DNA of 64,000 bases, taken from Prostheceraeus crozeri (Eukaryota; Platyhelminthes; Polycladida; Euryleptidae). The stretch is from positions 434,001 to 498,000 of the forward strand of contig CAJQUW010014359.1 of the NCBI GenBank assembly GCA_907163375.1. The letters are read 5' to 3'. This document shows positions 619 to 49,217 of this stretch, one piece after another (the first letter of the stretch is position 1; every line of letters starts with the position of its first letter). The notes beneath the pieces are model-generated. The model ran no database searches, was not told where the DNA came from, and saw only the letters and a program-made list of their open reading frames with translations. The position numbers and the translations under genes were made by a program.

Positions 619-660
619 ATGTGTATTATGACAATGTTGTTTTTCCTCCATATAAACTAC

Positions 661-1296: not shown

Positions 1297-1424
1297 ACTA
1301 GAGTGTTCGATCGTATAACGTGAATGAGAAGTGCTGCAATCGTTTCACTTATATAGTTATTTAACAATGAATTCCTCAACAACCAATCAGAATGATTCTA
1401 ATTTAGATGAAGATTCCTTTTTTC

Positions 1425-2739: not shown

Positions 2740-5067
2740 TTTTTCAACTTTTTAGCACTACTTATGAAATTTTATAAGTAGTCTATCACTTAGGGCAGGT
2801 CACTAGCGACCGAACCTTTTTTGAATCAAGTCAAACGGACTTGTAGAAGCAAAGTTACAAGCCTTTAAAGTTTTGGAGTCTTTTATGGCCTGGAGACGAA
2901 GGCCATCTCCTGGCGAACCTCTAAGTCTGACGCCTTAGCTGATATCAGCAATGAAATTTTCTAAGTCGGTTTCTACCAGAAACCCGGTTTTTCAGATTTC
3001 CAATGCTATCATCGGAGCTCCAGAGTTCACCTACCCCAACCCAGTCGGGAGGAGAACTGATTTCCACAAGCCGAGTTTCCACTTATATAGTGTGTGGCGA
3101 TCAGCTGATGACGTAATACCCATCATCCAAACACTAAAAACCCGTCTATCTCCGGTTCTAGTGCTCCGATTGAGGTGGAAATGTACCACTTCCATGTAGA
3201 ATTTGACGCTGAATCCGAATCTGGCCTCCGTTTTCCCATCCGATGCTTCGTTTTGGCTCTACAGCAGGCAGCCATCGCAAAAATTCTAACTCGTTTTTTC
3301 GAATGTTGAAAATTTTTCTCTCCGATTGACTTGAAACTCACCATACAGATAGAGAATTTCACGCTAATTTCAAATCTGAAATCCGTTTTCCAATCCGATG
3401 CTTCGTTTTGAAGCTACAGCCCAAAACGTCCAAAATTCTAACTCTGTCGTTTTTCGCCAATCTCCCAAAATCTGAAATGACGTCTCACATCTAAACGAAG
3501 ACAGATATGAACAAGCCGTTTGTTTCACTGAATTTGTCTCACTCCCAGCTTTCAAACGAGCTATGGCACGACAAAATCCGTCCACTAGAAGCCAAGATCG
3601 AAGCTAGCTGTCCCGAGGGGGGGGGAGGTCTTCAAAACATTTTCTCTCCGATTGCGTTCAAATTCACCATACCGATGCAGAATTTGACGCTGATTCCAAA
3701 TCTGAAATCCGTTTTCCCATCCGATGCTTCGTTTTGGCGCTACAGCCCAAAACGTCCCAAATTCTAACTCTGTCGTTTTTCGCCAATCTCCCAAAATCTG
3801 AAATGACGTCTCACATCTAAACGAAGACAGATATGAACAAGCCGTTTGTTTCACTGAATTTGTCTCACTCCCAGCTTTCAAACGAGCTATGGCACGACAA
3901 AATCCGTCCACTGGAAGCCAAGATCGAAGCTAGCTGTCCCGAGGGGGGACGTCAGCGAAAATTTTTTCTCTCCGATTGCTTTCAAATTCACCATACCGAT
4001 GCAGAATTTGACGCTGATTCCAAATCTGAAATCCGTTTTCCCATCCGATGCTTCGTTTTGAAGCTACAGCCCAAAACGTCCAAAATTCTAACTCTGTCGT
4101 TTTTCGCCAATCTCCCAAAATCTTAAATGACGTCTCACATCTAAACAAAGACAGATATGAACAAGCCGTTTGTTTCACTGAATTTGTCTCACTCTTAGCT
4201 TTCAAACGAGCTATGGCACGACAAAATCCGTCCACTAGAAGCCAAGATCGAAGGTAGCTGTCCCGAAGGGGGGGGGAGGTCTTCAAAACTTTTTCTCTCC
4301 GATTGCTTTCAAATTCACCATACCGATGCAGAATTCGACGCTGATTCCAAATCTGAAATCCGTTTTCCAATCCGATGCTTCGTTTTGGCGCTACAGCCCA
4401 AAACGTCCAAAATTCTAACTCTGTCGTTTTTCGCCAATCTCCCAAAATCTTAAATGACGTCTCACATCTAAACGAAGACAGATATGAACAAGCCGTTTGT
4501 TTCACTGAATTTGTCTCACTCTTAGCTTTCAAACGAGCTATGGCACGACAAAATCCGTCCACTAGAAGCAAAGTTGGAAGATCGGTGCCGAGGGGGGGAG
4601 GTCTGAACTTTTTCTCTCCAATTGAGTTGGGAAGAAGTTCCTAGACCCAACTTTGGCCAAAACGTCCGAATTTGCACTCCATTTTCCCATCCGAGGCCTC
4701 CTTCCTGTCGAAAAATGGACTTTCTCATCCCAAAACCTCCAACACCTGCCTTTTCCAACTCTGACGGTTTCTTGCCATTTTCCTCCCTAAACCCAAGAAA
4801 ATGAACCCAAACTGAGCTTTTCACTGCCTTTTTCTCACTTTTAGCTTTCAAATGAGCTATGGCACGACTTTCTACGATGTCTACAACCAAAGTTGGAAGT
4901 TTGGCAGGAGGGGGGGGGGAGGGACCCGTTTCCTCCTCACGGACCCATTCCTCCCAGCACATCCTTGGCCCTCTCCCTCACACTTCCTGCCAGAGGGGGG
5001 GGGCTGAGTCAGCCTGATGACTCAGCATTTCACATTTTGTCCTTGCGTCTGGAATATGCTTACTACT
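2740..5067. repeat. Terminal repeat zone of the sister element
   Basis: Homologous to 26270-27376 and, inverted, to 13578-15010. Going outward it holds an imperfect palindrome at 2757-2782 built on ACTACTTAT/ATAAGTAGT, a perfect 12-bp palindrome (GCTGATATCAGC, 2938-2949), a TATA-like site at about 3078-3086, at least four tandem units of about 325 bp (about 3300-4640; the word GACGTCTCACATC recurs near 3479, 3804, 4128 and 4456), and a distinct last unit (4640-4980) matching the units of the palindromic element. Unit junctions carry runs of 7-10 G. The zone ends TTACTACT at 5067. Confidence 0.75.
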
Positions 5068-12651: not shown

Positions 12652-12900
12652 TAAGGCCTCTGTCACACAGGAAAGGCGTCTTCCATCTTCCATCCTCCAT
12701 TTGGGATTTCCCTTTAATTGCATGTAGAAAAGAATACAGCCAATCACACAGAAAAGTCATCAGTCACAAGTCATCTTCCATCTTCCATCGTCCGTCACGC
12801 TGTCACACAGAAAAAGTCATAAGGCATGAAATTATGCGGCTGGTGAAGTTCATTTCCATCAGGAGTCTTCCATCAGCCACGAATCTGTTCTAAAATTAGA
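12652..12900. mobile_element. MITE dimer, left part of copy A
   Basis: Starts with GGCCTCTGTCACAC at 12655, preceded by TAA (12652-12654). The matching inverted end is GTGTGACAGCGGCC ending at 28879, followed by TAA. A 3-bp TAA duplication and GGCC-start inverted ends suggest a PIF/Harbinger-type MITE (tentative). This part ends at CTAAAATTAGA (12890-12900), repeated at 28004-28014 as the target duplication of the Penelope-like element that split the MITE. Copy B at about 28281-28879 shows what an unsplit unit looks like. Confidence 0.65.
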
Positions 12901-13571
12901 TGAGATCGCTTTTAATGATCAAAGTTACCTCCAGATTAAGGGTGTTCCCATGGGATCACACTATGCCCCACCACTGGCAATCATATTTATGAACAGTATA
13001 GAAGAAAGAGCTATTGTTGCCATTAGCTCAGCTCAATTTTGATAACATTATTTATAAAAGATACATTGACGACATTATGATAGGTCCCCTCAAAAGAGAT
13101 TCTGACACTTTCGATTTAATAAGTACGACCTTTAATTCGATTGACAACAACATTAAGTTTACCGTGGAATCTCCACATACCGGTAAATTGAACTTCCTAG
13201 ATTTAACGGTTTGGACAAATAATGGAAAAATAACCCATAAGAAATATGTCAAAGAGATCTCCTTCGGTAATTCTCTTAAAAAAGATAGTTGGCTACCCAG
13301 CTTTGTAAAAACGAATTTTGTCCAACAAAAAGTTAATGACATAGAAATTCGTGGTAGTGCGACTTTGCCTGCAGAAGCTATGAAGGCAGACATTGAAGCG
13401 TGTAATAGTAATTTAAAATTGAACGGATATACTAACAATGACATAAGGAAGTGAAACAAAACTAAAAATAAACACAAATCAAATGATAGCACAAATAATA
13501 CAAAATCAATAAGTAGATGTACACTAAAGTTGCCGTTTGTCAGCGATAGCTTAATAAGAAAAATTAATTAC
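12901..13571 (+). pseudogene. Penelope-like RT, 5' portion (interrupted)
   Basis: 5'-truncated reverse transcriptase of a Penelope-like element. A first frame shows KGVPMGSHYAPPLA, the conserved block before the active site. After a frameshift near 13014 the frame shows YIDDIMI, the YxDD catalytic motif, then NFLDLTV. A TGA at 13452-13454 interrupts it. The same frame then runs open to 13571 (LPFVSDSLIRKINYN) and directly into the insertion site of the palindromic element. It continues in frame at 27383. One frameshift plus one nonsense codon make it a dead copy. Confidence 0.85.
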
Positions 13572-13577
13572 AACATT
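13572..13577. repeat. Target-site duplication AACATT, left
   Basis: AACATT directly precedes the AGTAGTAACC end of the palindromic element. The identical hexamer follows GGTTACTACT at 27377-27382. Removing the element and one hexamer restores a continuous Penelope-like reading frame, which independently confirms the insertion boundaries. Confidence 0.95.
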
Positions 13578-14480
13578 AGTAGTAACCCCATTGCAGGCGC
13601 AAGCCCAAAATGTGAAATGCTGAGTCAGCCCCCAACCCCCATCCCCACCCTCTGGCAGGCAGTGTGAGGGACATGGCCAAGGATGTGCTGGGAGGAATGG
13701 GTCCGTGAGGACGAAACTGTTCCCCCCCACCCCCTCCTGTCACACTTCCACCTTTGGTTGTAGAGATGGTAGAAAGTCGTGCCATAGCCCATTTGAAAGC
13801 TGAGAATGAGAAAAAGGCAGTGGAAAGCTCAGTTTGGACTCATTTTCTTGGATTTAGGGAGGAAAATGGCAAGAAACTGTCAGAGTTGGAAAAAGTCAGA
13901 TTTTGGAGGTTTTGGGATGAGAAAAGTCGTTTTTCGACATGAAGGAGGCCTCGGATGGGAAAATGGAGTGCAAATTCGGACGTTTTGGTCAAAGTTGGGT
14001 TTAGGAACATCTTCCCAACTCAATCGAAGAGAAAAAGTTCTGACCCTCACCCCCACCCCTTCCTGTCACACTTCCAACTTTGGTTGTAGAGATGGTAGAA
14101 AGTCGTGCCATAGCTCATTTGAAAGCTGAGAATGAGAAAAAGGCAGTGGAAAGCTCAGTTTGGACTCATTTTCTTGGGTTTAGGGAGGAAAATGGCAAGA
14201 AACTGTCAGAGTTGGAAAAAGTCAGGTTTTGGAGGTTTTGGGATTAGAAAAGTCGTTTTTCGACATGAAGGAGGCCTCGGATGGGAAAATGAAGTGCAAA
14301 TTCGGACGTTTTGGCCAATTTTGGGTCTAGGAACATCATCCCAACTCAATCGGAGAGAAAAAGTTCTGACCCCCACCCCCACCCCCTCCTGTCACACTTC
14401 CAACTTTGGTTGTAGAGATGGTAGAAAGTCGTGCAATAGCTCGTTTGAAAGCTAAGAGTGAGACAAATTCAGTGGAAAAC
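13578..14480. repeat. Left terminal tandem repeats (326-bp units)
   Basis: After the AG end and a CACCCC-rich patch, the word TTTGGTTGTAGAGATGGTAG recurs near 13751, 14077 and 14413, giving two full units of about 326 bp and part of a third. Units end in GA-rich sequence and C-runs (G-runs on the other strand). The right arm has one unit fewer. The 107-codon frames read through the units are repeat artefacts: they recur because the unit recurs. No gene is supported here. Confidence 0.85.
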
Positions 14481-14707
14481 ATGGCTTGTTCGTATCTGCC
14501 TTCGTTTAGATGTGATGCGTCATTTAAGATTTTGGGAGATTGGCGAAAAACGACAGAGTTAGAATGTTTATGAAAATCGCTCTAGCGGGTGAAGCAAGCG
14601 TCGGACGGGCAAACAGAGACTTGATTTGGAATCAGCGTCAAATTTGAGACAAATGATGTTTCGACCCCCAACCCCACCCCCCTCTTACCGATTGCATATT
14701 CACAGGG
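14480..14707. other. Subterminal unique segment, left arm
   Basis: Sequence linking the tandem repeats to the first TATA box, with a C-rich run at about 14665-14690 (CCCCCAACCCCACCCCCC), a potential G-quadruplex on the minus strand. It is homologous to the 3' part of the units in the sister element (CTGTCGTTTTTCGCCAATC in the other orientation). Confidence 0.4.
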
Positions 14708-14764
14708 TATATAAGAATGGGATCGGGAGAGGAATTTCACTAAGTTGAGAAACTGACTACAGGT
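14708..14764 (+). promoter_or_regulatory. Outermost promoter with leader splice donor
   Basis: TATATAAG at 14708-14715 is followed by about 47 bp of leader ending CTACAG and a strong 5' splice site (GTAAGT, 14763-14768). This matches the TATA, short leader, 5' splice site layout of genes A and C, so a transcript probably starts near 14740 and is spliced to a downstream exon, perhaps gene A. In the right arm the same donor reads GTAGGT (minus strand, near 26518), a weaker site. Just downstream lie the palindromes CCGATATCGG (14784-14793) and GCTGATATCAGC (14811-14822). Confidence 0.5.
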
Positions 14765-14810
14765 AAGTCGTTTCTCTTGAGTTCCGATATCGGACTTCTG
14801 ACTTTCCATT

Positions 14811-14822
14811 GCTGATATCAGC
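14811..14822. promoter_or_regulatory. Conserved 12-bp palindrome GCTGATATCAGC
   Basis: A perfect palindrome found in all three visible termini (2938-2949, 14811-14822, 26458-26469) although surrounding sequence has diverged in the sister element. It is possibly a dimeric protein binding site in the replication/transcription control region. Confidence 0.4.
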
Positions 14823-14977
14823 TAAGGTGTCAGACTTATAGGTTAGTCAGTATAGCATGACTGACCATTTGATGATAGTAGGCCGAAATCTTCAAACGGC
14901 TATAACTTTGCTTCTACAAGTCCTTTAGACTTGATTCAAAAAACATTCGACAGCTCTTGCTGTGCTGTAGGTGACAG

Positions 14978-15004
14978 ACTACTTATAAACGTTTTATGAG
15001 TAGT
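14978..15004. promoter_or_regulatory. Conserved imperfect palindrome on ACTACTTAT
   Basis: A 27-bp inverted repeat with arms ACTACTTAT and ATGAGTAGT around AAACGTTTT. It is conserved at 26276-26302 and in the sister element at 2757-2782. The arms repeat the ACTACT of the element ends. A binding site for an element protein is an inference. Confidence 0.35.
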
Positions 15005-15557
15005 ACTAAAATACTGAAAAATTTAAATTCATATTTAATGATAATAATTAAAGTTTTTGAATAAAAAGCAGTCGTTTATGAGTCTCTGTGACTTGGGTCG
15101 TTTCCTCTTGTAAATAACTCTACCGGTTTTCATGTCAAAACTGGGGCCCGGATACCAACACAGTGATATGACGCACGCTCTGTCCGCTCGAGGTTGGATT
15201 TGTGGGTCGAGGCCTTGGAGCTGGGATAAGATCCCCTCTGAGTAATGCCTGTAACGGATTCAAGAGCTTAACACCCAAACGGTTGCTGGCTTGCTATCAG
15301 GCCTTCTTCGTCTAGCCTCAGTAACTTAGGCTTGGCAACGTCTATCGTTTGTCATTGTAACTTGGTAAAAATGGGATGGTTACTGCAAGCATTGACGTCA
15401 AACCTTTTCGCGTCATAGGGGAATCCGTCTTTGTGTTGGGAGTTGGTAACAGAAAGCACGGTGACTGCCGATGCCCATACATGGTAAAACTGCTGTTGTC
15501 AAGTTAAAAGCATGACCAAATAAGGAAGGTCTGAATCATAGCTTTGTGCTCGCTGGG
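15005..15557. other. Non-coding upstream region of gene A, left arm
   Basis: No ORF with support. Contains ATGAAAACTGG-type sequence shared with the sister element and one TTGCTATCA motif at 15291-15299, the word that recurs in the leader introns of genes A and C. Confidence 0.4.
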
Positions 15558-15814
15558 TATATAAAGCGCGACTTTTCTCTAGTCTTCACTCCTGTTTCAA
15601 GTTACAAGACGAACGGTGAGTGCTCTGACAAGGTTTGCTATCAAACTTTGGGATTTAGGATAAAGCTAGGAATCATACTCTTTAACTTTGGTTGACGATT
15701 TTATTCCAACGTTTGCTATCAAATGTTTGATGACTTAGTCTTTCAATGCATATCAGCAAGTAGTATCCTATAAACACTTGCCATCAAATTTTACTCTATC
15801 TTTACAGAATCATA
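15558..15814 (+). promoter_or_regulatory. Gene A promoter and 5' UTR intron, left arm
   Basis: TATATAAA at 15558-15565; transcription start expected near 15590 (AGTCTTCACTCC). The leader exon ends at 15615 with donor GTGAGT (15616), and the acceptor TTTACAG ends at 15807, seven bases before the ATG. The 192-bp intron carries three TTG(C/T)(T/C)ATCAAA copies (15635-15645, 15713-15723, 15779-15789 with one change). The mirror copy is at 25466-25722 on the minus strand. Confidence 0.7.
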
Positions 15815-17075
15815 ATGACGAAATCAAGCAATGCAAAAATGTTGGTTGGCAAATGCAGTTGCGGCAAGATTGCCAGAGGTAGTGAGCTGAGGAAGCATAT
15901 TAAAGAGGGGACGGTGGACGTGCATATGAGAGAGGTGTTGTTGAGAGTGTGCGTCCATCATCGGGTGGTATGTGGGGAAGGGAATGAGGTGGCATTTATT
16001 AAGGATCACAACGAGTGTCCAAGTGGTAATATAGCTATGGCAGGGTTCAAGGAGTGGTTTGAGGGAGAGTTGTTGGAAAGGGAAGAGGTAAGGAAGGCGA
16101 TGGCAACGATTGAGGGCGTGGTTGGGGAGAAAGTGGTGACGAAGGCGAGTGATGAGAGTTCGAGTGAGGAAGTTGAGTTGAGAGCGGAAATGAAGAAGAA
16201 GGATGATGTTGATTTGGATAAGGTGATTAAGGATTTGTTTGGGGATATCGGTGATCTGGAGGGGGAGGGTGAGGAAGTGGGTAAGCCGATGGCAGCGTCA
16301 TCGCCACGGCGGGAAGAGGGGTGTGATACGGAGGCATTTGTTAGGTTGAAGGATCGTGTGATGGGTTTGGAAAGTGTAAATAGAAAAGTTTTGAAGGAGA
16401 ATGAAGAGCTGGTGGCGAAGGTTGAGGGGTATAGGGCAACGAGGGAAGAGTTGGAGAGTATGAGAAAGAAGGAGAAGGAATGGATGGCGGAAAGGAGCGA
16501 GTTGATGAGGAAGGCAGGTTTGGTGGAGAGTTTGCAAGCGAGTTTGTCGAGGAAGGATGAAGAGATAGAGCGGATGCGAAGCGTGGTGAAGGAGACGGAG
16601 GAAGTGAAGGGTATAAATAAGAGGTTGGCGGGTGAAGTTGAGCGACTGCATGAGTGTTTGAAGAGTAGAAAAAGAAGAGTGTATGAAGTCCATCTTCCCC
16701 TCTTTGAAAATAATATATGTGACGTCCCCACAATCACTGACGACCCTAATGTGACTCAGCAATGCTATGAGGGCGACAGAGTCCGGTGCCTACATATCAA
16801 TTTGAACATCACTGGAGAGCTGGAGGACTTCGTCGTCCGAAAAGTTCGGAAGAAGTTGCCCTGTAAGTTACTTCAACATCATCATTTCCTTGCCGCCTCT
16901 AATCTCCTATTCTTTTTCTTTCAGAGTGTTTGCAGAAGTGAGAGTGTCGGTGGACGGAGAACGACCCATGGGCTCTTTTAAGGGCCAACCTTCTAATGCA
17001 GCTAAAGCGGTCCCAAGCCCGCCACATATCTTCGGATATGGAATGCAGAGGGGAAGAAAAATGATGAAGGGATGA
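15815..17075 (+). CDS. Gene A, zinc-binding/coiled-coil protein (left copy)
   Basis: The ATG at 15815 lies just after a leader intron. The unspliced frame is 388 codons, but GTAAGT at 16863 and a pyrimidine tract ending TTTCAG at 16924 mark an intron near the end. Splicing at the next AG (16926) keeps the frame open to TGA at 17073-17075; splicing at 16924 creates an immediate TAG. Residues 14-68 hold C14, C16, H28, H37, C46, H48/49, C53, H65 and C68, a likely zinc-binding module. About 85-275 is E/K-rich heptad-like coiled coil with acidic stretches, followed by a short beta-rich region. A polyadenylation signal (AATAAA, 17328-17333) follows. The family is unknown to me; a nuclear or structural protein is possible. 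The nucleotide sequence is essentially identical to the right copy. A long antisense ORF is a shadow. Confidence 0.7.
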
Positions 17076-17109
17076 AACGGGAGGACATTTATGCGCCACA
17101 CGCAACATA

Positions 17110-17350
17110 TCACAGACTTCTCTCTTCGCTAGTGAACAAGCTCTTGTCAGTGTCGTCAGAAACTTTATCATGTTGTACAAAAGTTTATACTGCAACACAG
17201 GTTGATGTATAGTTAGAAAAGTTTGATCATGACGTTTATTCGTGAGTGTCGTCAGAAAGTGTATCATGGTTTGCAAAAGCAAAGTTTAGTATAGTCAAAT
17301 AATTTTACTACGACACACGTTTGTGAAAATAAAGTTTGATCATTGACGTT
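17110..17350. repeat. Minisatellite between genes A and B, left arm
   Basis: About 2 copies of the ~98-bp type unit (CGTCAGAAA, TATCATG, TGATGTATAGTTAG, TTTGATCATGACGTTTATTCG). The right arm has one more unit, and the sister element has a longer diverged array. The gene A polyadenylation signal lies in the last copy. Confidence 0.7.
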
Positions 17351-17629
17351 GTATGACTGACCGAACTCACAGCAGCACTAGAAAGTTTTAGAAGGTTTTA
17401 CTGCAAAGTGTAGATTGTCTTGTAACTTACTTTCAGTGTTAGAACGTTTTATTGGTGACAGTTGCCAAATGTTTCCCTTATTAGAGAAATTCATGGCTGT
17501 TAGATTCGCTTCATCAGGTTTACTAAAAGTAGTTTTCTACTGCAATGAGAGTTTAGAATGTTATAAATGAAAATAGTGTACACCACAGCATTAGAACGTT
17601 TAGCACAACACAAGTGTCATGAAAAATAC

Positions 17630-17635
17630 TTTATT
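17630..17635 (-). terminator. Gene B polyadenylation signal, left arm
   Basis: Minus-strand AATAAA about 35 bp past the gene B stop codon; mirrored on the plus strand at 23547-23552. Confidence 0.6.
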
Positions 17636-17667
17636 TGGTCTTTGATTTAACATCATTGAAACCCACT

Positions 17668-18096
17668 TTACCCACATAACTCACTTAAAGCAATGACAAT
17701 ATGCTTTATTTTATTCAGAAGCAAATGATCGCCGTAACCATGAAAGTTGTCCATACGAGAAATAATCTTCCGTAGATGTCGTGTATAAAACTCAGAAGCA
17801 TCAGTAACATATTCTTGTCCATAGGAACGAAATTGAAAATCAACACTTTCCGCTTCTTCACCTTCTGGAAAATGAATGTAATTGACATGTGCAATTAAGT
17901 GAGCCTTGATGAGACTGTCTTTGAAATAAGATATCAACTCCGCAAATATTTCTCGTGTGTAGTCTAAACATGCTTCAAATACTGTCTCCTCCTTTTGAAA
18001 CTCAAGGATGTAATCTTGTATTAAGCCTCCGAAGCACTCTTGATGAAAACGAATCGAGCAATCATCATGTTTCAATGTATTGACTTCAGGTGCCAT
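17668..18096 (-). CDS. Gene B, stand-alone paralogue of PolB N-domain (left)
   Basis: Complete 142-codon ORF, ATG at 18094-18096, convergent with gene A and divergent from gene C. The protein is identical in both arms. Aligning it by eye with the mid-part of gene C gives a shared pattern: a Lys in a helix, then an E-ES step (GEEAES versus TGEVES), a strand with FR/IR, a D..E...RH helix (DASEFYTRH versus DVNEWVERH), F followed by G, and a final I...I/V strand. This is the domain that in metazoan PolB-type elements lies just before the conserved LP...KKAVIN block. Gene B lacks the zinc fingers and the later block, so it looks like a single-domain paralogue, perhaps a partner or decoy. Function is inferred only from the resemblance. 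Confidence 0.7.
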   Translation of the reverse strand: MAPEVNTLKHDDCSIRFHQECFGGLIQDYILEFQKEETVFEACLDYTREIFAELISYFKDSLIKAHLIAHVNYIHFPEGEEAESVDFQFRSYGQEYVTDASEFYTRHLRKIISRMDNFHGYGDHLLLNKIKHIVIALSELCG

Positions 18097-18739
18097 GGTT
18101 GAGTTTATTGCTAAACATCATATTTGCCTAAGACGATTTCAATAGCGCGTTACAAATGTGTGTGCGCACATCGGGAACTCTAGCTTGTCTGTGATTGGAT
18201 GAGAGGTCTGATCCATTCACCACTTAGGAAAATCTTATAAAAGGCAGTGCACCAGCTCTGCTCTTCACATTTATCTTTCACAAGGTGAGTGTCGGTGAGC
18301 TCCTGCTATCAGGTTGTTTTGACTTGCTATCAAGTTCAATAGTCTCTTGCTATCACATCTTCTGCTCATAAAACATATCATCGCTGTAATACCTCCTTTG
18401 CTCGAGCGTTCCTTCGGGACGGCGGGTACTGCCGTAGAGGGATTGCGTTGCACGGGTTGTTCGTCGTTTGTTAGACCGAAACCTCTGAGCCGTTGCTCAT
18501 GTTGGGCGCTCGACTTCATACTCAACGTGACGCTTTCTCTCGCCAGGTCAGAGTACTTTAGCCATTCGACAAAGGTTAGTCTTTATGATATGGAGTAGAG
18601 GGAAATGTAATTCATTAGATGTCACTTCAATGATTGTTCCCAAACGTTGACTAGGCAAATGAAACGATTCTCATCTTTCCTTTTCAGTGATTGAAGTCTT
18701 ACTTATCTACCATTGATCATCTACAATCGACTATCTACC
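18097..18739. promoter_or_regulatory. Divergent B/C control region and gene C leader, left
   Basis: For gene C (plus): CCAAT on the minus strand (GATTGGAT, about 18193-18200), TATA box TATAAAAG at 18236-18243, start expected near 18265 (CTCTTCACA), leader donor GTGAGT at 18285. A possible internal UTR exon is 18547-18573 (after CTCTCGCCAG, before GTTAGT), with the last acceptor TTTTCAG at 18687. Three TTGCTATCA-type motifs follow the donor (18304-18311, 18324-18332, 18347-18355). For gene B (minus) no clear TATA is seen; a palindrome TGTGCGCACA at about 18158-18167 lies upstream. The two arms differ more here than in the coding regions. Confidence 0.55.
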
Positions 18740-20640
18740 ATGGAATTGACAAAAATTGAGAACTACCGCATTGCTGTCGAGATGGAGAAGGCCACCATCG
18801 AGCAATGTAAGTATTTGTATCAAGGTTGACTCTATTACTAACATCATTAGGGTAGTCATCCTCATTAAAATCAAGAGCCCCTCTCTTATTTTGTTCATGT
18901 TTAAACCGAATCCAAATTTTACCTCTTCTTATCTTTGCCGTCATTCTTTTTCAGTACATGAATGCATTCGTAATGGGGAACCCGTCCCCCAAGGAGCAAT
19001 CGGGCAAGCCTATGAGCGGCTCGGAAAGTGTAAGTATCCCCACCTATGAGAATTGGAATGTCATGTTTTAGCACTTTTGTATCCGTATAGTTCATTCTCC
19101 ATCATTATTATCTCCGCAACCTCTAATCTAATCTCTCTTTTCTCTCTACAGATATGGCGAAGAAAAAGAAGTGGGAGGAAGCCGCGAGGCGGAAATACCG
19201 CGAGGAATTTCCGGCCCTACCTTCCCGCTCACCTACCTCCGCCCAAGCTGCGACCCCTTTCTCGGGCATCGTTCTCGCCACACCTCCACCGCCACCAGCT
19301 CCGGTACCTGCGCCAGTCCCTGCTCCTCGCCATCACGTCCCTCCAACACCGAAGCCCAGGACCCTTCCACCCTCGGCTCGTGTCCCTCTCCTGCCTCCTC
19401 CGCGTCCATCCTTGCTGCCGGAGTTACAGTCCTTAGATGGTAAGTCATCGTGATTGGGAAATAGGGGGGGGGCTAAGACTTCAAACTTGAAATGTTGATC
19501 ATGTTACTAATCTCTTTTCTCTTTTTCTCAACAGATTTCGCGGCCTACCTCCTGGACGGCGACGTTCCCTACCGTCCCATCATCCCGGCATCACCACCAC
19601 CACCTGCAGCGGCCGACCTCCCTCTCCTCTCCGTGAAGTCGGTGGAGAGATTGTTGGAGCAGGAGGAGTTGGAGATCGTCGGAGAGGAGAGGGAGATGGA
19701 AGTCGAAGAGGAGGACTTTCGATGCCAGCGGTGTGACAGGGTCTTCGCCTCAGCCTACAGTTTGAGACGTCACACCGCTGGCCGTGCCTGCAGGGGAGGA
19801 AAGCGCCGACCGATCCCTCAACGGCCCAAGTGTGAAGGTTGTGGACGCACGTTCTACAACAGCACCAACTTGTGAGTCCACATCGAAGCCGGTTCCTGTG
19901 GCAGTGTGAGGCAACCACCGACAACAACAGGTAGGAAGCATCCTTCATCGCACGTCGGCTTTTCCTGTTCTTCGTGTCAGAAGACCTTTCCTACAGAGTT
20001 TGTTCTTTCTTCGCACACACTCTGTCAAACACATTCCACTGAGCTTTACACTGACAACAACGTCACTCTAAGGCTGAGCAAGTTTTCCCTTGAGAGGCTC
20101 GTTCGCGATTATGAGTTAGAAAGCTCTGAAGCTGTGCAGGACATTCATCCTTTCTTGATGAATCATATAGGCTTAATTCATCAAATGTTGGCGAGTTTAG
20201 ATAGATTTTTACTTAAGGGTATGTTCTATCTCACTGCTCGTTTCAATAAGGTAGACAGTAGCACGGGAGAAGTAGAGTCCACTGTGACCATTAGGATAGC
20301 CTCCTGTGCTGCTGATCTCATAGGTGATGTAAACGAGTGGGTAGAGAGACATGCGACCTATCTCGTCAGCAATTTAAATAAATTTGATGAAAGAGACAGC
20401 GGTCTGGTCTTTGATGGGATAGAGAAAGTAGACATCAAAATAAATCTTTTAGAAAATTTACAAGGGAGTGGTTGTTTCACTCTCCCCAAAGCACTGGCTG
20501 ACAAAAAGGCTGTCATCAATGTAGAATGTCAGTCCCAGTGTTTCAAGTATGCCGTCCTCTCCATTCTTCACTACAATGATGTAGGTAAGCATCGTCAAAG
20601 AGTCACCAAGTATTGTGAATGGAGAGGACGGCATACTTGA
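18740..20640 (+). pseudogene. Gene C, zinc-finger/PolB-N protein (left, nonsense)
   Basis: Four exons, all joined in phase 1: 18740-18806, 18955-19029, 19152-19439 and 19535 onward, each with GTAAGT donors and pyrimidine-rich acceptors. Exon 3 is basic at first (KKKKWEEAARRKY), then very Pro-rich. Exon 4 has two C-x2-C-x12-H-x5-C fingers, a third C2H2-type finger, the helix/strand domain shared with gene B, and a block reading LPKALADKKAVINVE, typical of the region before the polymerase in PolB transposons. Here a TGA at 19873-19875 stops the frame inside finger two, where the right arm has CGA, so this copy cannot make the full protein. The frame crosses the central spacer and ends by chance at 20640. 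Exonuclease and polymerase motifs are absent. Confidence 0.75.
20567..20616. other. Palindrome centre: 50-bp asymmetric spacer
   Basis: The left arm ends at CCATTC (20561-20566) and the right arm starts at its complement GAATGG (20617-20622). The 50 bp between are not palindromic and continue the left-arm gene C frame with family-like sequence (HYNDVG, RVTKY), so they are original gene sequence present only once. This is the loop expected if a strand folded back on itself at a GAATGG/CCATTC microhomology. Confidence 0.8.
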
Positions 20641-22442
20641 AACACTGGGACTGACATTCTACATTGATGACAGCCTTTTTGTCAGCCAGTGCTTTGGGGA
20701 GAGTGAAACAACCACTCCCTTGTAAATTTTCTAAAACATTGATTTTAATGTCTACTTTCTCTATCCCATCAAAGACCAGACCGCTGTCTCTTTCATCAAA
20801 TTTATTTAAATTGCTGACGAGATAGGTCGCATGTCTCTCTACCCACTCGTTTACATCACCTATGAGATCAGCAGCACAGGAGGCTATCCTAATGGTCACA
20901 GTGGACTCTACTTCTCCCGTGCTACTGTCTACCTTATTGAAACGAGCAGTGAGATAGAACATACCCTTAAGTAAAAATCTATCTAAACTCGCCAACATTT
21001 GATGAATTAAGCCTATATGATTCATCAAGAAAGGATGAATGTCCTGCACAGCTTCAGAGCTTTCTAACTCATAATCGCGAACGAGCCTCTCAAGGGAAAA
21101 CTTGCTCAGCCTTAGAGTGACGTTGTTGTCAGTGTAAAGCTCAGTGGAATGTGTTTGACAGAGTGTGTGCGAAGAAAGAACAAACTCTGTAGGAAAGGTC
21201 TTCTGACACGAAGAACAGGAAAAGCCGACGTGCGATGAAGGATGCTTCCTACCTGTTGTTGTCGGTGGTTGCCTCACACTGCCACAGGAACCGGCTTCGA
21301 TGTGGACTCGCAAGTTGGTGCTGTTGTAGAACGTGCGTCCACAACCTTCACACTTGGGCCGTTGAGGGATCGGTCGGCGCTTTCCTCCCCTGCAGGCACG
21401 GCCAGCGATGTGACGTCTCAATCTGTAGGCTGAGGCGAAGACCCTGTCACACCGCTGGCATCGAAAGTCCTCCTCTTCGACTTCCATCTCCCTCTCCTCT
21501 CCGACGATCTTCAACTCCTCCTGCTCCAACAATCTCTCCACCGACTTCACGGAGAGGAGAGGGAGGTCGGCCGCTGCAGGTGGTGGTGGTGATGCCGGGA
21601 TGATGGGACGGTAGGGAACGTCGCCGTCCAGGAGGTAGGCCGCGAAATCTGTTGAGAAAAGAGAAAAGAGATTAGTAACATGATCAACATTTCAAGTTTG
21701 AAGTCTTAGCCCCCCCCCTATTTCCCAATCACGATTACTTACCATCTAAGGACTGTAACTCCGGCAGCAAGGATGGACGCGGAGGAGGCAGGAGAGGGAC
21801 ACGAGCCGAGGGTGGAAGGGTCCTGGGCTTCGGTGTTGGAGGGACGTGATGGCGAGGAGCAGGGACTGGCGCAGGTACCGGAGCTGGTGGCGGTGGAGGT
21901 GTGGCGAGAACGATGCCCGAGAAAGGGGTCGCAGCTTGGGCGGAGGTAGGTGAGCGGGAAGGTAGGGCCGGAAATTCCTCGCGGTATTTCCGCCTCGCGG
22001 CTTCCTCCCACTTCTTTTTCTTCGCCATATCTGTAGAGAGAAAAGAGAGATTAGATTAGAGGTTGCGGAGATAATAATGATGGAGAATGAACTATACGGA
22101 TACAAAAGTGCTAAAACATGACATTCCAACTCTCATAGGTGAGGATACTTACACTTTCCGAGCCGCTCATAGGCTTGCCCGATTGCTCCTTGGGGGACGG
22201 GTTCCCCATTACGAATGCATTCATGTACTGAAAAAGAATGACGGCAAAGATAAGCAGAGGTAAAATTTGGATTCGGTTTAAACATGAACAAAATAAGAGA
22301 GGGGCTCTTGATTTTAATGAGGATGACTACCCTAATGATGTTAGTAATAGAGTCAACCTTGATACAAATACTTACATTGCTCGATGGTGGCCTTCTCCAT
22401 CTCGACAGCAATGCGGTAGTTCTCAATTTTTGTCAATTCCAT
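20603..22442 (-). CDS. Gene C, zinc-finger/PolB-N protein (right, open)
   Basis: Mirror copy of gene C with exons 22442-22376, 22227-22153, 22030-21743 and 21648-20603 on the minus strand, all splice sites retained. It has CGA where the left copy has a stop, so it stays open through all three zinc fingers and the PolB-associated N-domain, about 490 codons, then ends shortly after entering the central spacer (stop 20603-20605). The product would be a Pro-rich zinc-finger protein with the N-domain and part of the KKAVIN block, but no exonuclease or polymerase domain. Few residues differ from the left copy (for example E to K before the fingers, T to I in finger one). It could act as a DNA-binding protein without polymerase, or be non-functional. 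Confidence 0.75.
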
Positions 22443-23085
22443 GGTAGATAGTCGATTGTAGATGATCAATGGTAGATAAGTAAGACTTCAATCACTGAAA
22501 AGGAAAGATGAGAATCGTTTCATTTGCCTAGTCAACGTTTGGGAACAATCATTGAAGTGACATCTAATGAATTACATTTCCCTCTACTCCATATCATAAA
22601 GACTAACCTTTGTCGAATGGCTAAAGTACTCTGACCTGGCGAGAGAAAGCGTCACGTTGAGTATGAAGTCGAACGCCCAACATGAGCAACGGCTCAGAGG
22701 TTTCGGTCTAACAAACGACGAACAACCCGTGCAACGCAATCCCTCTACGGCAGTACCCGCCGTCCCGAAGGAACGCTCGAGCAAAGGAGGTATTACAGCG
22801 ATGATATGTTTTATGAGCAGAAGATGTGATAGCAAGAGACTATTGAACTTGATAGCAAGTCAAAACAACCTGATAGCAGGAGCTCACCGACACTCACCTT
22901 GTGAAAGATAAATGTGAAGAGCAGAGCTGGTGCACTGCCTTTTATAAGATTTTCCTAAGTGGTGAATGGATCAGACCTCTCATCCAATCACAGACGAGCT
23001 AGAGTTCCCGATGTGCGTACGCACAATTGTAACGCGTTATTGAAATCGTGTTAGGCAAAAATGTTGCTTAGCAATAGACTCAACC
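22443..23085. promoter_or_regulatory. Divergent B/C control region and gene C leader, right
   Basis: Mirror of 18097-18739. On the minus strand: TATA TATAAAAG at about 22939-22946, leader donor at about 22897, and three TGATAGCAA-type words (plus-strand view) at about 22827-22878. The gene B side has GTGCGTACGCAC at 23014-23025 where the left arm has GTGTGCGCAC, one of several local differences between the arms. Confidence 0.5.
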
Positions 23086-23514
23086 ATGGCACCTGAAGTC
23101 AATACATTGAAACATGATGATTGCTCGATTCGTTTTCATCAAGAGTGCTTCGGAGGCTTAATACAAGATTACATCCTTGAGTTTCAAAAGGAGGAGACAG
23201 TATTTGAAGCATGTTTAGACTACACACGAGAAATATTTGCGGAGTTGATATCTTATTTCAAAGACAGTCTCATCAAGGCTCACTTAATTGCACATGTCAA
23301 TTACATTCATTTTCCAGAAGGTGAAGAAGCGGAAAGTGTTGATTTTCAATTTCGTTCCTATGGACAAGAATATGTTACTGATGCTTCTGAGTTTTATACA
23401 CGACATCTACGGAAGATTATTTCTCGTATGGACAACTTTCATGGTTACGGCGATCATTTGCTTCTGAATAAAATAAAGCATATTGTCATTGCTTTAAGTG
23501 AGTTATGTGGGTAA
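23086..23514 (+). CDS. Gene B, stand-alone paralogue of PolB N-domain (right)
   Basis: Mirror copy of the 142-codon gene; the protein is identical to the left copy. ATG at 23086, polyadenylation signal AATAAA at 23547-23552. It faces gene A of the same arm across the minisatellite. See the left copy for the domain comparison with gene C. Identity despite changes in nearby non-coding sequence suggests recent duplication, gene conversion or constraint. Confidence 0.7.
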   Translation: MAPEVNTLKHDDCSIRFHQECFGGLIQDYILEFQKEETVFEACLDYTREIFAELISYFKDSLIKAHLIAHVNYIHFPEGEEAESVDFQFRSYGQEYVTDASEFYTRHLRKIISRMDNFHGYGDHLLLNKIKHIVIALSELCG

Positions 23515-23819
23515 AGTGGGTTTCAATGATGTTAAATCAAAGACCAAATAAAGTATTTTTCATGACACTTGTGTTGTGCTAAACGTTCTAATGCTGTGGT
23601 GTACACTATTTTCATTTATAACATTCTAAACTCTCATTGCAGTAGAAAACTACTTTTAGTAAACCTGATGAAGCGAATCTAACAGCCATGAATTTCTCTA
23701 ATAAGGGAAACATTTGGCAACTGTCACCAATAAAACTTTCTAACACTGAAAGTAAGTTACAAGACAATCTACACTGTGCAGTAAAACCTTCTAAAACTTT
23801 CTAGTGCTGCTGTGAGTTC

Positions 23820-24130
23820 GGTCAGTCATACAACGTCAATGATCAAACTTTATTTTCACAAACGTGTGTCGTAGTAAAATTATTTGACTATACTAAACTT
23901 TGCTTTTGCAAACCATGATACACTTTCTGACGACACTCACGAATAAACGTCATGATCAAACTTTTCTAACTATACATCAACCTGTGTTGCAGTAAAAACT
24001 TTTGTACAAACCATGATACACTTTCTGACTAGACTTATGAATAAACGTCATGATCAAACTTTTCTAACTATACATCAACCTGTGTTGCAGTATAAACTTT
24101 TGTACAACATGATAAAGTTTCTGACGACAC
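23820..24130. repeat. Minisatellite between genes A and B, right arm
   Basis: Same repeat as 17110-17350 but with one extra ~98-bp unit: the word TTTTCTAACTATACATCAAC occurs twice, near 23967 and 24060. This accounts for the 98-bp shift in mirror coordinates between genes A and B. Confidence 0.8.
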
Positions 24131-24204
24131 TGACAAGAGCTTGTTCACTAGCGAAGAGAGAAGTCTGTGATGTGTTGCGTGTGGCGCATGAATGTCCTCC
24201 CGTT

Positions 24205-25465
24205 TCATCCCTTCATCATTTTTCTTCCCCTCTGCATTCCATATCCGAAGATATGTGGCGGGCTTGGGACCGCTTTAGCTGCATTAGAAGGTTGGCCCTT
24301 AAAAGAGCCCATGGGTCGTTCTCCGTCCACCGACACTCTCACTTCTGCAAACACTCTGAAAGAAAAAGAATAGGAGATTAGAGGCGGCAAGGAAATGATG
24401 ATGTTGAAGTAACTTACAGGGCAACTTCTTCCGAACTTTTCGGACGACGAAGTCCTCCAGCTCTCCAGTGATGTTCAAATTGATATGTAGGCACCGGACT
24501 CTGTCGCCCTCATAGCATTGCTGAGTCACATTAGGGTCGTCAGTGATTGTGGGGACGTCACATATATTATTTTCAAAGAGGGGAAGATGGACTTCATACA
24601 CTCTTCTTTTTCTACTCTTCAAACACTCATGCAGTCGCTCAACTTCACCCGCCAACCTCTTATTTATACCCTTCACTTCCTCCGTCTCCTTCACCACGCT
24701 TCGCATCCGCTCTATCTCTTCATCCTTCCTCGACAAACTCGCTTGCAAACTCTCCACCAAACCTGCCTTCCTCATCAACTCGCTCCTTTCCGCCATCCAT
24801 TCCTTCTCCTTCTTTCTCATACTCTCCAACTCTTCCCTCGTTGCCCTATACCCCTCAACCTTCGCCACCAGCTCTTCATTCTCCTTCAAAACTTTTCTAT
24901 TTACACTTTCCAAACCCATCACACGATCCTTCAACCTAACAAATGCCTCCGTATCACACCCCTCTTCCCGCCGTGGCGATGACGCTGCCATCGGCTTACC
25001 CACTTCCTCACCCTCCCCCTCCAGATCACCGATATCCCCAAACAAATCCTTAATCACCTTATCCAAATCAACATCATCCTTCTTCTTCATTTCCGCTCTC
25101 AACTCAACTTCCTCACTCGAACTCTCATCACTCGCCTTCGTCACCACTTTCTCCCCAACCACGCCCTCAATCGTTGCCATCGCCTTCCTTACCTCTTCCC
25201 TTTCCAACAACTCTCCCTCAAACCACTCCTTGAACCCTGCCATAGCTATATTACCACTTGGACACTCGTTGTGATCCTTAATAAATGCCACCTCATTCCC
25301 TTCCCCACATACCACCCGATGATGGACGCACACTCTCAACAACACCTCTCTCATATGCACGTCCACCGTCCCCTCTTTAATATGCTTCCTCAGCTCACTA
25401 CCTCTGGCAATCTTGCCGCAACTGCATTTGCCAACCAACATTTTTGCATTGCTTGATTTCGTCAT
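24205..25465 (-). CDS. Gene A, zinc-binding/coiled-coil protein (right copy)
   Basis: Mirror copy of gene A with the ATG at 25463-25465, exon 1 down to 24418, the same GTAAGT intron and the same closely spaced alternative acceptors (mirror of 16924 and 16926), ending at 24205-24207. The 388-codon unspliced frame is identical to the left copy, as are all antisense frames, so the nucleotide sequence is unchanged over at least about 750 bp. It has the leader intron and TATA box at 25466-25722. See the left copy for residues and interpretation. Confidence 0.7.
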
Positions 25466-25722
25466 TATGATTCTGTAAAGATAGAGTAAAATTTGATGGC
25501 AAGTGTTTATAGGATACTACTTGCTGATATGCATTGAAAGACTAAGTCATCAAACATTTGATAGCAAACGTTGGAATAAAATCGTCAACCAAAGTTAAAG
25601 AGTATGATTCCTAGCTTTATCCTAAATCCCAAAGTTTGATAGCAAACCTTGTCAGAGCACTCACCGTTCGTCTTGTAACTTGAAACAGGAGTGAAGACTA
25701 GAGAAAAGTCGCGCTTTATATA
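25466..25722 (-). promoter_or_regulatory. Gene A promoter and 5' UTR intron, right arm
   Basis: Mirror of 15558-15814: minus-strand TATATAAA at 25715-25722, leader donor at about 25664, acceptor just before the ATG, and the three TTGCTATCAAA-type motifs inside the intron. Confidence 0.7.
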
Positions 25723-26515
25723 CCCAGCGAGCACAAAGCTATGATTCAGACCTTCCTTATTTGGTCATGCTTTTAACTTGACAACAGCAGTTTTACCATG
25801 TATGGGCATCGGCAGTCACCGTGCTTTCTGTTACCAACTCCCAACACAAAGACGGATTCCCCTATGACGCGAAAAGGTTTGACGTCAATGCTTGCAGTAA
25901 CCATCCCATTTTTACCAAGTTACAATGACAAACGATAGACGTTGCCAAGCCTAAGTTACTGAGGCTAGACGAAGAAGGCCTGATAGCAAGCCAGCAACCG
26001 TTTGGGTGTTAAGCTCTTGAATCCGTTACAGGCATTACTCAGAGGGGATCTTATCCCAGCTCCAAGGCCTCGACCCACAAATCCAACCTCGAGCGGACAG
26101 AGCGTGCGTCATATCACTGTGTTGGTATCCGGGCCCCAGTTTTGACATGAAAACCGGTAGAGTTATTTACAAGAGGAAACGACCCAAGTCACAGAGACTC
26201 ATAAACGACTGCTTTTTATTCAAAAACTTTAATTATTATCATTAAATATGAATTTAAATTTTTCAGTATTTTAGTACTACTCATAAAACGTTTATAAGTA
26301 GTCTGTCACCTACAGCACAGCAAGAGCTGTCGAATGTTTTTTGAATCAAGTCTAAAGGACTTGTAGAAGCAAAGTTATAGCCGTTTGAAGATTTCGGCCT
26401 ACTATCATCAAATGGTCAGTCATGCTATACTGACTAACCTATAAGTCTGACACCTTAGCTGATATCAGCAATGGAAAGTCAGAAGTCCGATATCGGAACT
26501 CAAGAGAAACGACCT
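25723..26515. other. Non-coding upstream region of gene A, right arm
   Basis: Mirror of 14765-15557: no gene; contains the 27-bp ACTACTTAT palindrome (26276-26302) and GCTGATATCAGC (26458-26469). Confidence 0.4.
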
Positions 26516-26572
26516 ACCTGTAGTCAGTTTCTCAACTTAGTGAAATTCCTCTCCCGATCCCATTCTTATATA
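26516..26572 (-). promoter_or_regulatory. Outermost promoter with leader donor, right arm
   Basis: Minus-strand TATATAAG at 26565-26572 and a leader ending CTACAG. The donor here is GTAGGT where the left arm has GTAAGT, so splicing may be weaker from this copy. Confidence 0.45.
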
Positions 26573-26699
26573 CCCTGTGAATATGCAATCGGTAAGAGGG
26601 GGGTGGGGTTGGGGGTCGAAACATCATTTGTCTCAAATTTGACGCTGATTCCAAATCAAGTCTCTGTTTGCCCGTCCGACGCTTGCTTCACCCGCTAGA

Positions 26700-27376
26700 G
26701 CGATTTTCATAAACATTCTAACTCTGTCGTTTTTCGCCAATCTCCCAAAATCTTAAATGACGCATCACATCTAAACGAAGGCAGATACGAACAAGCCATG
26801 TTTTCCACTGAATTTGTCTCACTCTTAGCTTTCAAACGAGCTATTGCACGACTTTCTACCATCTCTACAACCAAAGTTGGAAGTGTGACAGGAGGGGGTG
26901 GGGGTGAGGGTCAGAACTTTTTCTCTCCGATTGAGTTGGGATGATATTCCTAGACCCAAAATTGGCCAAAACGTCCGAATTTGCACTTCATTTTCCCATC
27001 CGAGGCCTCCTTCATGTCGAAAAACGACTTTTCTCATCCCAAAACCTCCAAAACCTGACTTTTTCCAACTCTGACAGTTTCTTGCCATTTTCCTCCCTAA
27101 ACCCAAGAAAATGAGTCCAAACTGAGCTTTCCACTGCCTTTTTCTCATTCTCAGCTTTCAAATGAGCTATGGCACGACTTTCTACCATCTCTACAACCAA
27201 AGTTGGAAGTGTGACAGGAAGGGGTGGGAGGGGAACAGTTTCCTCCTCACGGACCCATTCCTCCCAGCACATCCTTGGCCATGTCCCTCACACTGCCTGC
27301 CAGAGGGTGGGGGTGGGGGTGAGGGCTGAGTCAGCATTTCACATTTTGGGCTTGCGCCTGCAATGGGGTTACTACT
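26700..27376. repeat. Right terminal tandem repeats
   Basis: Mirror of the left terminus with one 326-bp unit fewer: the word CTACAACCAAAGTTGG occurs near 26866 and 27189. It ends GGTTACTACT at 27376. G-runs (GGAGGGGGTGGGGGTGAGGG and similar) mark unit ends and may form G-quadruplexes. Confidence 0.85.
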
Positions 27377-27382
27377 AACATT
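27377..27382. repeat. Target-site duplication AACATT, right
   Basis: Second copy of the AACATT hexamer. See the left copy. Confidence 0.95.
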
Positions 27383-28003
27383 CGTAAATACAAATTAGAA
27401 ATTAACTTTGTAACTACCGGAAATAAGAAACTGCGCCAGGCTTTGAAAAGAAAGAGTCCGTGTAAAAAACATAGCAATTGTGAAATCTGCGTAAAACTTC
27501 CTGATAAGTATAATTGTGATAAATCATGCGTTGTTTATGAATTTGAGTGTAAATTTTGTGATTCTAAATATATAGGAAAAACTGCTCGGCCGTTCCGTTT
27601 GCGGTATAACGAACATAAAAATAGCATCATCAAGCGTGATTGTCATAGCGCCTTGAGCGATCATATAAAATTTTGCATCCCGTGTACCAACATAGATAGC
27701 TTCAATATCAATTTCTTAAAGTGTGTGCATGATCCGATTGAGACAAGTTTGATGGAATCTCGTTTGATCGATTTTCGTAAGCCAGAATTGAACAGGCGTC
27801 ACGAGGGTGTTGTTGCACCTACTGTTAGAATCATTTAGTAAGGCAGTGACCAAGCGTCTGGACGCGAAACGTTTGCCGACTTTATCTGTATTATATTTTT
27901 ACTTAAACCTTTGTGTTTATTCGGCATTATACATATTTCGGGAGAGATTTGTGACGTTTTCCTTTTATTCATTATGTGCCTCCCGCCTCAAGCCATTACA
28001 TAT
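27383..28003 (+). pseudogene. Penelope-like element, GIY-YIG portion and 3' end
   Basis: Continues in frame from 13571-13577. A linker is followed by a Cys-rich segment (CKKHSNCEIC, then DKSCVVYEFECKFC) and the GIY-YIG core SKYIGKT, the Arg-rich helix RPFRLRYNEHK, and ESRLIDFRKPELNRR, ending at TAG 27836-27838. The CxxC-containing linker before GIY-YIG is normal for Penelope-like endonucleases. About 165 bp of 3' UTR follow to the element end at about 28003, where CTAAAATTAGA (28004-28014) repeats the 12890-12900 copy. This half has no internal stop. Confidence 0.85.
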
Positions 28004-28882
28004 CTAAAATTAGAACAAGTCTGAGGGAAGATATAGGAAGCTGTGATTTGCAAATTGAAGCAATCAAGACAGTAGTCATAGCAACGGTAAATAGTGAAAA
28101 ATAGTGATGACTGTATCGGAAATGGATTTCCCTAGTGTGACTAGACTGCGGTCGGTGGAAGATGGACGATGGAAAGCGAAAGACGGCAGAATCGTGTCAT
28201 CACGGCTTATGGAAGACGCCTTGTGAAGAATGTGCAAAGAGGTGAGTGACATGGGAGATGGAAGATGGAAGACGTCAGGCACACAGAATAAGGCGTGTTC
28301 CATCTTCCCTTTGGGATTTCCCTTTAATTGTGTGCAGAAAAAAATACAACCTATCACACAGAAAAGGGCATCAGCCACAAGCCATCTTCCATCTTCCATC
28401 ACGCTGTCACACAGAAAAAGTCATAAGGCGTCGTCCATCGGACATAAGGCACGAAATTATGCGGCTGGTGAAGTTTATTTCCATCTGCAATCAGGCACCA
28501 GCCGCAAGCACAGATTTAAAATTAGAAAAACAGAAGAAGTGACGTCTGAGGGAAGATGGAAGATATATGAATGAAGCTTTGATTTCGAAAGAGCGGCAAT
28601 ATATCCAATGTTTCAGGAAACAGCGCTTTCTTCACCATGTCGGACGAGGACGAGGATCAAGACAGTAGTCATAGGAACGGTTAATAGTGAAAGAAAATAG
28701 CGATGGCTGTATCGGAAATAGATTTCCCTAATTTGACTGCAGTTCGGGGAAGATGGAAGATGGACGATGGAAGGCGGAAAACGGCAGATGAAAACCTACT
28801 CATCACGCCTTATGAAGAATGTGCAAGAAGGCAAGTGACATGAAAGATGGAAGACACCTTATTCAGTGTGACAGCGGCCTAA
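28004..28882. mobile_element. MITE dimer, rest of copy A and complete copy B
   Basis: 28015-28280 is the right part of copy A and 28281-28879 is copy B, joined at a fused end (CACACAGAATAAGGCG). Copy B carries, without interruption, the sequences that flank the Penelope-like insertion in copy A: the left block (TTTGGGATTTCCCTTTAATT... near 28311) and the right block (GACAGTAGTCATAGGAACGG near 28661). Copy B reads TTTAAAATTAGA near 28514 where copy A has the duplicated CTAAAATTAGA. GGAAGATGGA-type purine repeats fill the subterminal parts. The right end GTGTGACAGCGGCC is followed by TAA. No transposase. Confidence 0.65.
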
Positions 28883-49201: not shown

Positions 49202-49217
49202 GCCACTAACCTGTAAA

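Follow-up and report, generated by a model that had tools for sequence, protein, structure and literature searches.

A 13.8-kb palindromic Polinton-like element in Prostheceraeus crozeri, probably a fold-back dimer of one end of a polymerase-bearing segment

How does a Polinton-like element come to carry the same end twice? The question is raised by a 64-kb window of the Prostheceraeus crozeri genome (the whole stretch of DNA analysed here), in which positions 13578–27376 form a near-perfect inverted repeat. Arm blocks of 3227, 2353 and 1044 nt pair at 99–100% complementarity, which is far beyond chance. The left arm is 6,989 bp and the right arm is 6,760 bp, with a 50-nt asymmetric centre between them. 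The element has ends of the AG...CT type, AGTAGTAAC at the left and GTTACTACT at the right, and AACATT stands on both sides of it as a 6-bp target-site duplication. It encodes genes A, B and a truncated C, each twice; a complete polymerase and integrase are absent. The initial annotation, made from the window alone, had described a palindromic Polinton-like inverted dimer of 13.8 kb. The palindrome is real, and its arms, coordinates, duplication and ends were confirmed. Its Polinton-like nature was borne out by the 6-bp duplications, long terminal inverted repeats (TIRs) and family B DNA polymerase (PolB) found in the family. Comparison with related copies indicates that the element is probably a fold-back inverted dimer of the left ~7 kb of a polymerase-bearing segment, and that it probably integrated as a palindrome.

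The flanks were joined in silico and gave a single Penelope-like frame, comprising a reverse-transcriptase-like part, the insertion point and a GIY-YIG part. The frame has one stop upstream of the insertion point and is open from there across the join. The label Penelope-like rests on naming by eye and on the GIY-YIG match. Because the joined flanks restore one frame, the palindrome interrupts a Penelope-like element, with a clean target duplication of 6 bp.

Relatives were sought in the same genome (2.05 Gb, 14,165 contigs), where the best 40 of 1811 candidates for gene A were scored. The parent element is 17–18 kb long and has the order TIR, gene A, gene B, PolB, TATA-binding protein (TBP), TIR. 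Two parents, on contigs C4236 and C14037, were read end to end as separate stretches and had unique, non-palindromic centres. The objection considered in the initial annotation, that every relative in the genome might have the palindromic centre, therefore does not apply. In both, the arm sequence runs past the palindrome centre into the polymerase gene. The polymerase frame is uninterrupted over 1364 codons in C14037, where gene C is continuous with it, and is broken in C4236. Gene C is the N-terminus of the parent's polymerase. The left arm was 98.5% identical to the C4236 copy (L033) over 2317 bp. The minus-strand genes behind the polymerase include TBP and two gene B paralogues, and the far end of the parent is a ~1.07-kb terminal repeat. 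Both arms are the left ~7 kb of this segment, so the earlier description of an inverted dimer of one end, with genes A, B and C doubled, was correct.

The best relatives of an 886-residue polymerase piece were 51–65% identical to it, and PF03175 (DNA polymerase B) was found in 18 of the 120 relatives listed, of 1819. The piece itself matched PF02945 only and stayed below the PF03175 threshold; searches of the Protein Data Bank with the piece and with its alignment gave no solved structure. The segment carries a family B polymerase, predicted to be of the protein-primed type. Ten gene A loci outside the window were classed as polymerase-side. Seven of them were inspected at either end, and all seven have both ends. 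These elements span 16.9–18.4 kb; the interiors were read in C4236 and C14037, and the other five were assigned by ends and size. Perfect 6-bp duplications were found in six of the seven (CAGATT, GATGTC, CATACT, TACAGC, TCCGTG and TTTGTG), and in C12398 the duplication is imperfect and one end is degraded.

The turn of the palindrome falls on a short inverted repeat that is native to the polymerase gene. In all five parent copies that cover this place (L033, L034 and L050–L052), the gene reads CCATTC, 50 nt, GAATGG and then straight on. The window matches the native gene up to GAATGG and then continues as the reverse complement of the sequence preceding CCATTC. A Trp is kept at the turn position in both relatives that reach it in the protein alignment, which points to the same junction. 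This is the form expected if a 3′ end had annealed back on a short inverted repeat and been extended. Excerpts of two studies of chromosomal fold-back junctions describe a spacer with 2–8 bp of inverted microhomology (PMC3907307) and stems of 4–14 bp with some larger loops (PMC7467729). The 126-bp junction had a full match only at the window; the other 39 of the best 40 among 1205 candidates stop at the turn. The gene B region likewise occurs as an inverted pair at the window only (best 40 of 2092 candidates scored, on 38 contigs). The window is a one-off among these scored matches, and the search for other palindromic copies that had been proposed earlier found none in them.

The arms outside the centre differ by 35 substitutions and two 1-nt indels. 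In addition, the 326-bp repeat has three copies in the left arm versus two in the right, and the right arm has one extra copy of a 98-bp repeat. All substitutions except that at 14051, at the edge of the repeat gap, were polarised against related loci of the same genome, with 2–38 loci per site (two at 12 of the sites), some of which overlap within a single element. One arm carried the family majority state at 34 of 34 polarised sites. The state of the other arm was absent from the compared loci at 30 sites and present in one locus at four, and the differences were private to the left arm in 23 cases and to the right in 11. Because one arm keeps the family state at every polarised site, both arms are copies of one molecule which mutated apart afterwards. 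No substitution separates the arms over 2,324 bp (14766–17090), a stretch estimated to be far too long for an even spread of 35 differences. An 82-bp cluster of 10 differences lies just upstream of gene B, and its nine left-private states were absent from the 11 loci compared there; it may be a mutation shower or a patch from another source.

The palindrome probably arose during replication. Protein-primed copying would start at the left terminus, and the growing strand would stop in the polymerase gene. The stalled 3′ end would anneal to its own strand through GAATGG/CCATTC, and synthesis would run back to the left terminus to give a hairpin. Copying of the hairpin would then yield a linear palindrome of 13.8 kb, each end of which is the left terminus. 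An integrase from a second, capsid-type segment, described below, would insert the palindrome as it would the normal segments. After insertion, the arms would gain private mutations and probably exchange sequence, as in the 2.3-kb stretch without substitution. The snap-back type of origin suggested in the initial annotation is supported by the native inverted microhomology and 50-nt loop at the break. Its proposal that palindromic DNA was itself the integration substrate, with integrase supplied in trans, is also favoured, but fold-back repair of an integrated copy is still viable.

Such conversion in place is the strongest competitor, although we consider it rather unlikely. A normal polymerase segment would have inserted with AACATT, and a later break in its polymerase gene would have been resected and folded back, so that the left half was copied inversely. 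Resolution would take place by recombination inside the right terminal repeat, and the palindrome itself would never have integrated. The junction signature is the same as that of chromosomal fold-back inversions, the parent's right terminal repeat is homologous to the left over ~1.07 kb and offers a ready place for resolution, and the target duplication is compatible with both histories. However, this history needs a break, a fold-back and a resolution within the last ~1 kb without copying of the flank. No second case was seen in the 40 scored gene B matches, and a single case does not discriminate.

The divergence of the arms bears on both histories. Formation in place predicts outer repeats that are older than the inner arms; a palindrome as old as the insertion predicts similar divergence of the two. 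Over all differences they were similar, with 8/740 in the outer terminal repeat and 26/3470 in the central arm (p = 0.36), which matches a palindrome as old as its insertion. Several observations weigh on the other side. Without the 10-difference cluster the values were 8/740 and 16/3390 (p = 0.06), and with the cluster counted once p was 0.11. The outermost 147 bp hold four differences versus 31 in the other ~6530 aligned positions (p = 0.007) and versus four in the next 594 (p = 0.05). These values would agree with a palindrome made in place once the element had inserted; sequence exchange between the inner arms could have the same effect. The same outer stretch, compared end versus end, showed 0–3 differences in the seven polymerase-type elements and in the capsid-type element C7883, and five in 149 in the window. 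Moreover, 6-bp inverted pairs with loops of 10–100 nt are common in the arm (217, about one every 32 bp). What counts as evidence is therefore not the presence of such a pair but the exact coincidence of the break with one. Variants of the left and right terminal repeats were tried as a test of conversion in place and were uninformative, the outermost repeats largely matching within each element.

An assembly or library artefact, either a chimeric fold-back read or a collapsed region, is very improbable. Long palindromes are a known class of assembly artefact, but these arms are separated by 35 substitutions and by the copy numbers of two tandem repeats, with all 34 polarised differences private or rare in one arm. 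In addition, two different flanks restore one frame, and the family terminus and 6-bp duplication are present at both ends. Least credible of all are two separate elements lying head to head or a naturally palindromic family: capsid-type elements do hold gene A in both 3.4-kb terminal repeats, but the first is ruled out by the non-family states, which at all 34 sites are private or rare and not common to another subgroup, the second by relatives with non-palindromic centres (both parents read through) and by a junction found once among the 40 scored copies, and no element terminus lies in 241 bp of the centre.

Gene A led to a second kind of element. It occurs as inverted pairs 12.4–12.8 kb apart on six contigs, versus 8.5 kb in the window. 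One such element (C7883:343591-361309) was read through and has a GGTGGG duplication and 3.4-kb terminal repeats that include gene A. Its interior encodes an rve integrase (PF00665, E 1.3e-12) with a C-terminal chromodomain (PF00385, E 1.6e-7), a C48-type protease, an ATPase, a RING protein and candidate major and minor capsid proteins. The ATPase label is weak, every match being below the cut-off, and the capsid proteins were named by eye. The two candidate capsid proteins had no match in Pfam, PHROGs or NCBIfam, and the one compared with solved structures had none. Perfect duplications were found in four of five capsid-type elements examined at their ends, C7883 included (GGTGGG, GATGAA, CATAAC and TTTGTG); no right end was found for C8514 within the examined stretch, and C13432 was left out of the end examination. 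The sized elements measure 17.3–18.3 kb. Long TIRs with AG...CT ends are present in both kinds.

The gene contents of the two kinds are complementary. By tblastn, polymerase, TBP and gene B are all missing from C7883; just an 18-residue match of a gene B paralogue was seen, in the terminal repeats. Conversely, tblastn found no integrase, protease, ATPase or capsid-type gene inside the elements of C4236 and C14037, and the single integrase match in L035 falls outside the polymerase element. One polymerase-segment gene has a counterpart in the capsid element (34% identity over 101 residues). Thirty gene A loci (of the 40 matches) were classed by their downstream sequence: 12 were polymerase-side, two of them the window, seven belonged to one capsid-side end and 10 to the other, and the remaining locus (L022) tracks the polymerase side as far as 17600 and no further. 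The best 40 of 788 capsid matches and the best 40 of 2092 gene B matches had no common contig, which is a weak test. These results change the earlier picture of lost genes. The full-length copies that the initial annotation had suggested seeking do have, in the two read through, a unique centre with PolB, but no integrase. The polymerase is indeed cut to its N-terminus in the palindrome; the integrase and capsid genes were not lost from it, being absent from both parent-type elements read and sitting on the second kind.

The simplest reading of two kinds with complementary essential genes and common termini would be a two-part family, judged on three elements read through (C7883, C4236 and C14037) and eight more by ends and size. 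If the family is bipartite, the palindrome would be a snap-back derivative of the polymerase segment. It is also possible that both kinds are deletion derivatives of an unseen ~27-kb element, or that they are a capsid element and its satellite. We see an even chance that this is a bipartite Polinton, with a PolB/TBP/gene B segment and an integrase/protease/ATPase/capsid-type segment that share termini and gene A and integrate separately, and that the window holds its integrated snap-back fossil.

Several other copies of the family were observed. In C4236, the TBP gene lies inside the polymerase segment at 6492–7031 of L033 (PF00352, E 2.9e-22). A fusion of polymerase and capsid elements was suspected in C9192 from spacing, and reading showed two polymerase segments of different age near each other (L061 and L062, C9192:59001-74000), ~88% and ~96% identical to the references. 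Two gene B matches in the same orientation lie 13.5 kb apart in C4699 (25443-26628 and 38983-40168) and are possibly tandem polymerase segments. L016 (C13432:53881-58080) is a rearranged capsid-type element, in which gene A and a second copy of the left part come immediately after penton-side sequence; 6.3 kb upstream there is another gene A copy, with unchanged orientation.

Snap-back or symmetric defective genomes exist in linear DNA viruses with protein-primed replication, such as adenovirus. The window element resembles them in having the same natural terminus at both ends, mirror arms and a short unpaired loop, and in the loss of internal and opposite-end sequence. Unlike them, it is a genomic insertion with a target duplication and not replicating DNA. 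Snap-back defective adenovirus genomes were not retrieved in the literature searched, which was covered at the level of the titles and abstract openings listed; at that level no palindromic or bipartite Polinton was found either. Bidnaviruses have single-stranded DNA. As far as excerpts of the sources go, bidnaviruses are segmented and have an adintovirus-type PolB (PMC11071296), and they and segmented densoviruses (PMC11071296; PMC10267136) share a split genome with the present family; they have parvovirus-type capsids, whereas here the segments are double-stranded, ~17 kb long and rve-integrated. The terms "palindrom" and "segment" are absent from the portions of PMC11071308 and PMC8097293 that were available.

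The excerpts likewise allow comparison with Polintons/Mavericks (PMC8097293), which have 6-bp target duplications, TIRs, AGT-type ends, a ~17-kb unit, a family B polymerase, an rve integrase and capsid-type genes, all of them found in this family. In contrast to them, the polymerase and the integrase/capsid-type genes are here on different elements of about equal size, and the window copy consists of the left 7 kb alone, in duplicate. Adintoviruses (PMC11071296, in part) share an rve integrase with a C-terminal chromodomain, a C48-type protease match and a PolB with an extra N-terminal region. Unlike in adintoviruses, PolB and virion-type genes never occur together in the three elements read through, TBP lies in the polymerase segment, and gene A lies within long terminal repeats. 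In the same excerpts, some genomes have adenovirus-class virion proteins but lack a recognisable PolB and integrase, and others show the converse combination, with different virion proteins; because of these, loss or exchange of PolB, integrase and virion modules is not new in itself. Chromosomal fold-back inverted duplications, as described in parts of PMC3907307 and PMC7467729, also have a single-copy spacer bounded by a short native inverted repeat, but on each side of the window element there are an element terminus and a copy of a 6-bp duplication.

If the favoured fold-back reading is true, the window preserves, as a genomic fossil, an error in the protein-primed replication of a DNA virus. 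Protein priming and a viral phase are both commonly attributed to Polintons, but neither is easy to observe. Strand-switching on a protein-primed linear template would leave just such a palindrome, with one terminus at both of its ends, which makes it indirect physical evidence for this replication mode. The surroundings, a possible split Polinton genome, are more interesting than the palindrome itself. Distribution of the polymerase and the integrase/capsid-type genes over recurrent, equal-sized, independently inserted elements would amount to a split genome, if it is true genome-wide, and this divided layout would be unusual for Polinton-type elements. It would imply trans-complementation for replication and integration, and would bear on the kinship of Polintons, adintoviruses and bidnaviruses. 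Polinton screens that accept an element only if it has PolB together with integrase would miss such families.

The features of the element and its insertion site are listed in Table 1.

Table 1. Coordinates of the palindromic element, its genes and its flanks in the 64-kb window.
Feature	Position	Strand	Remark
Penelope-like element, left part	13002..13451	+	reverse-transcriptase-like; by eye, without Pfam match
Target-site duplication AACATT, left copy	13572..13577	.	joined flanks give continuous Penelope-like frame
Left arm	13578..20566	+	left ~7 kb of polymerase segment (TIR, gene A, gene B, PolB N-terminus)
Terminal inverted repeat proper	13578..14644	+	~1.07 kb, as in parent elements; with 326-bp tandem repeats
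Gene A, left copy	15815..16981	+	388 aa, coiled-coil by eye
Gene B, left copy	17668..18096	-	142 aa
Cluster of 10 arm differences in 82 bp	18105..18186 (vs 22996-23077)	+	9 private to left arm
Gene C, left copy	19492..20616	+	zinc-finger and N-terminal part of PolB
Fold-back junction	20561..20622	+	CCATTC, 50-nt loop (20567-20616), GAATGG
Gene C, right copy	20603..21550	-	cut off at fold-back
Right arm	20617..27376	-	inverted copy of left arm
Gene B, right copy	23086..23514	+
Gene A, right copy	24299..25465	-
Target-site duplication AACATT, right copy	27377..27382	.
Penelope-like element, right part	27443..27835	+	GIY-YIG; PF01541, E 2.4e-4, 21.8 bits, cut-off 22.6

Gene A was annotated without a database identity. 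Of the three genes, A alone was searched against NCBIfam, without a match, and SMC-like and effector-like matches lay far below the cut-offs and were taken as coiled-coil noise. PHROGs gave no identity for genes A–C, with only short zinc-finger matches for gene C. No relatives were confirmed in IMG/VR for genes A, B and C, the gene C alignment, the polymerase piece, the polymerase alignment or a capsid-type protein. Gene B resembles the N-terminal region of a PolB relative. Compared with the right copy of gene C, the left copy differs by a 1-nt indel and contains a premature stop. PolB has a conserved N-terminal region with a conserved Cys, for which no domain match, OTU-like or other, was obtained.

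A 74% direct repeat lies on either side of the interrupted Penelope-like element (12653–12900 and 28269–28526); it may belong to that element or represent a short dispersed repeat. An older related element end occupies positions 1–5067, is 77–85% identical to the outer arm, runs off the left edge of the window and stops with ...TTACTACT at 5067. Its open reading frame at 256–615 is 65% identical to a capsid-side gene of C7883, and for this reason it is probably an old capsid-type segment. The window was scanned with Rfam (gathering cut-offs) and for tRNA, without a match. Long open frames at 36931–38064, 48335–49228 and 60636–61835 resemble, by eye, mariner-type and piggyBac-type transposases and a long interspersed nuclear element (LINE) reverse transcriptase.

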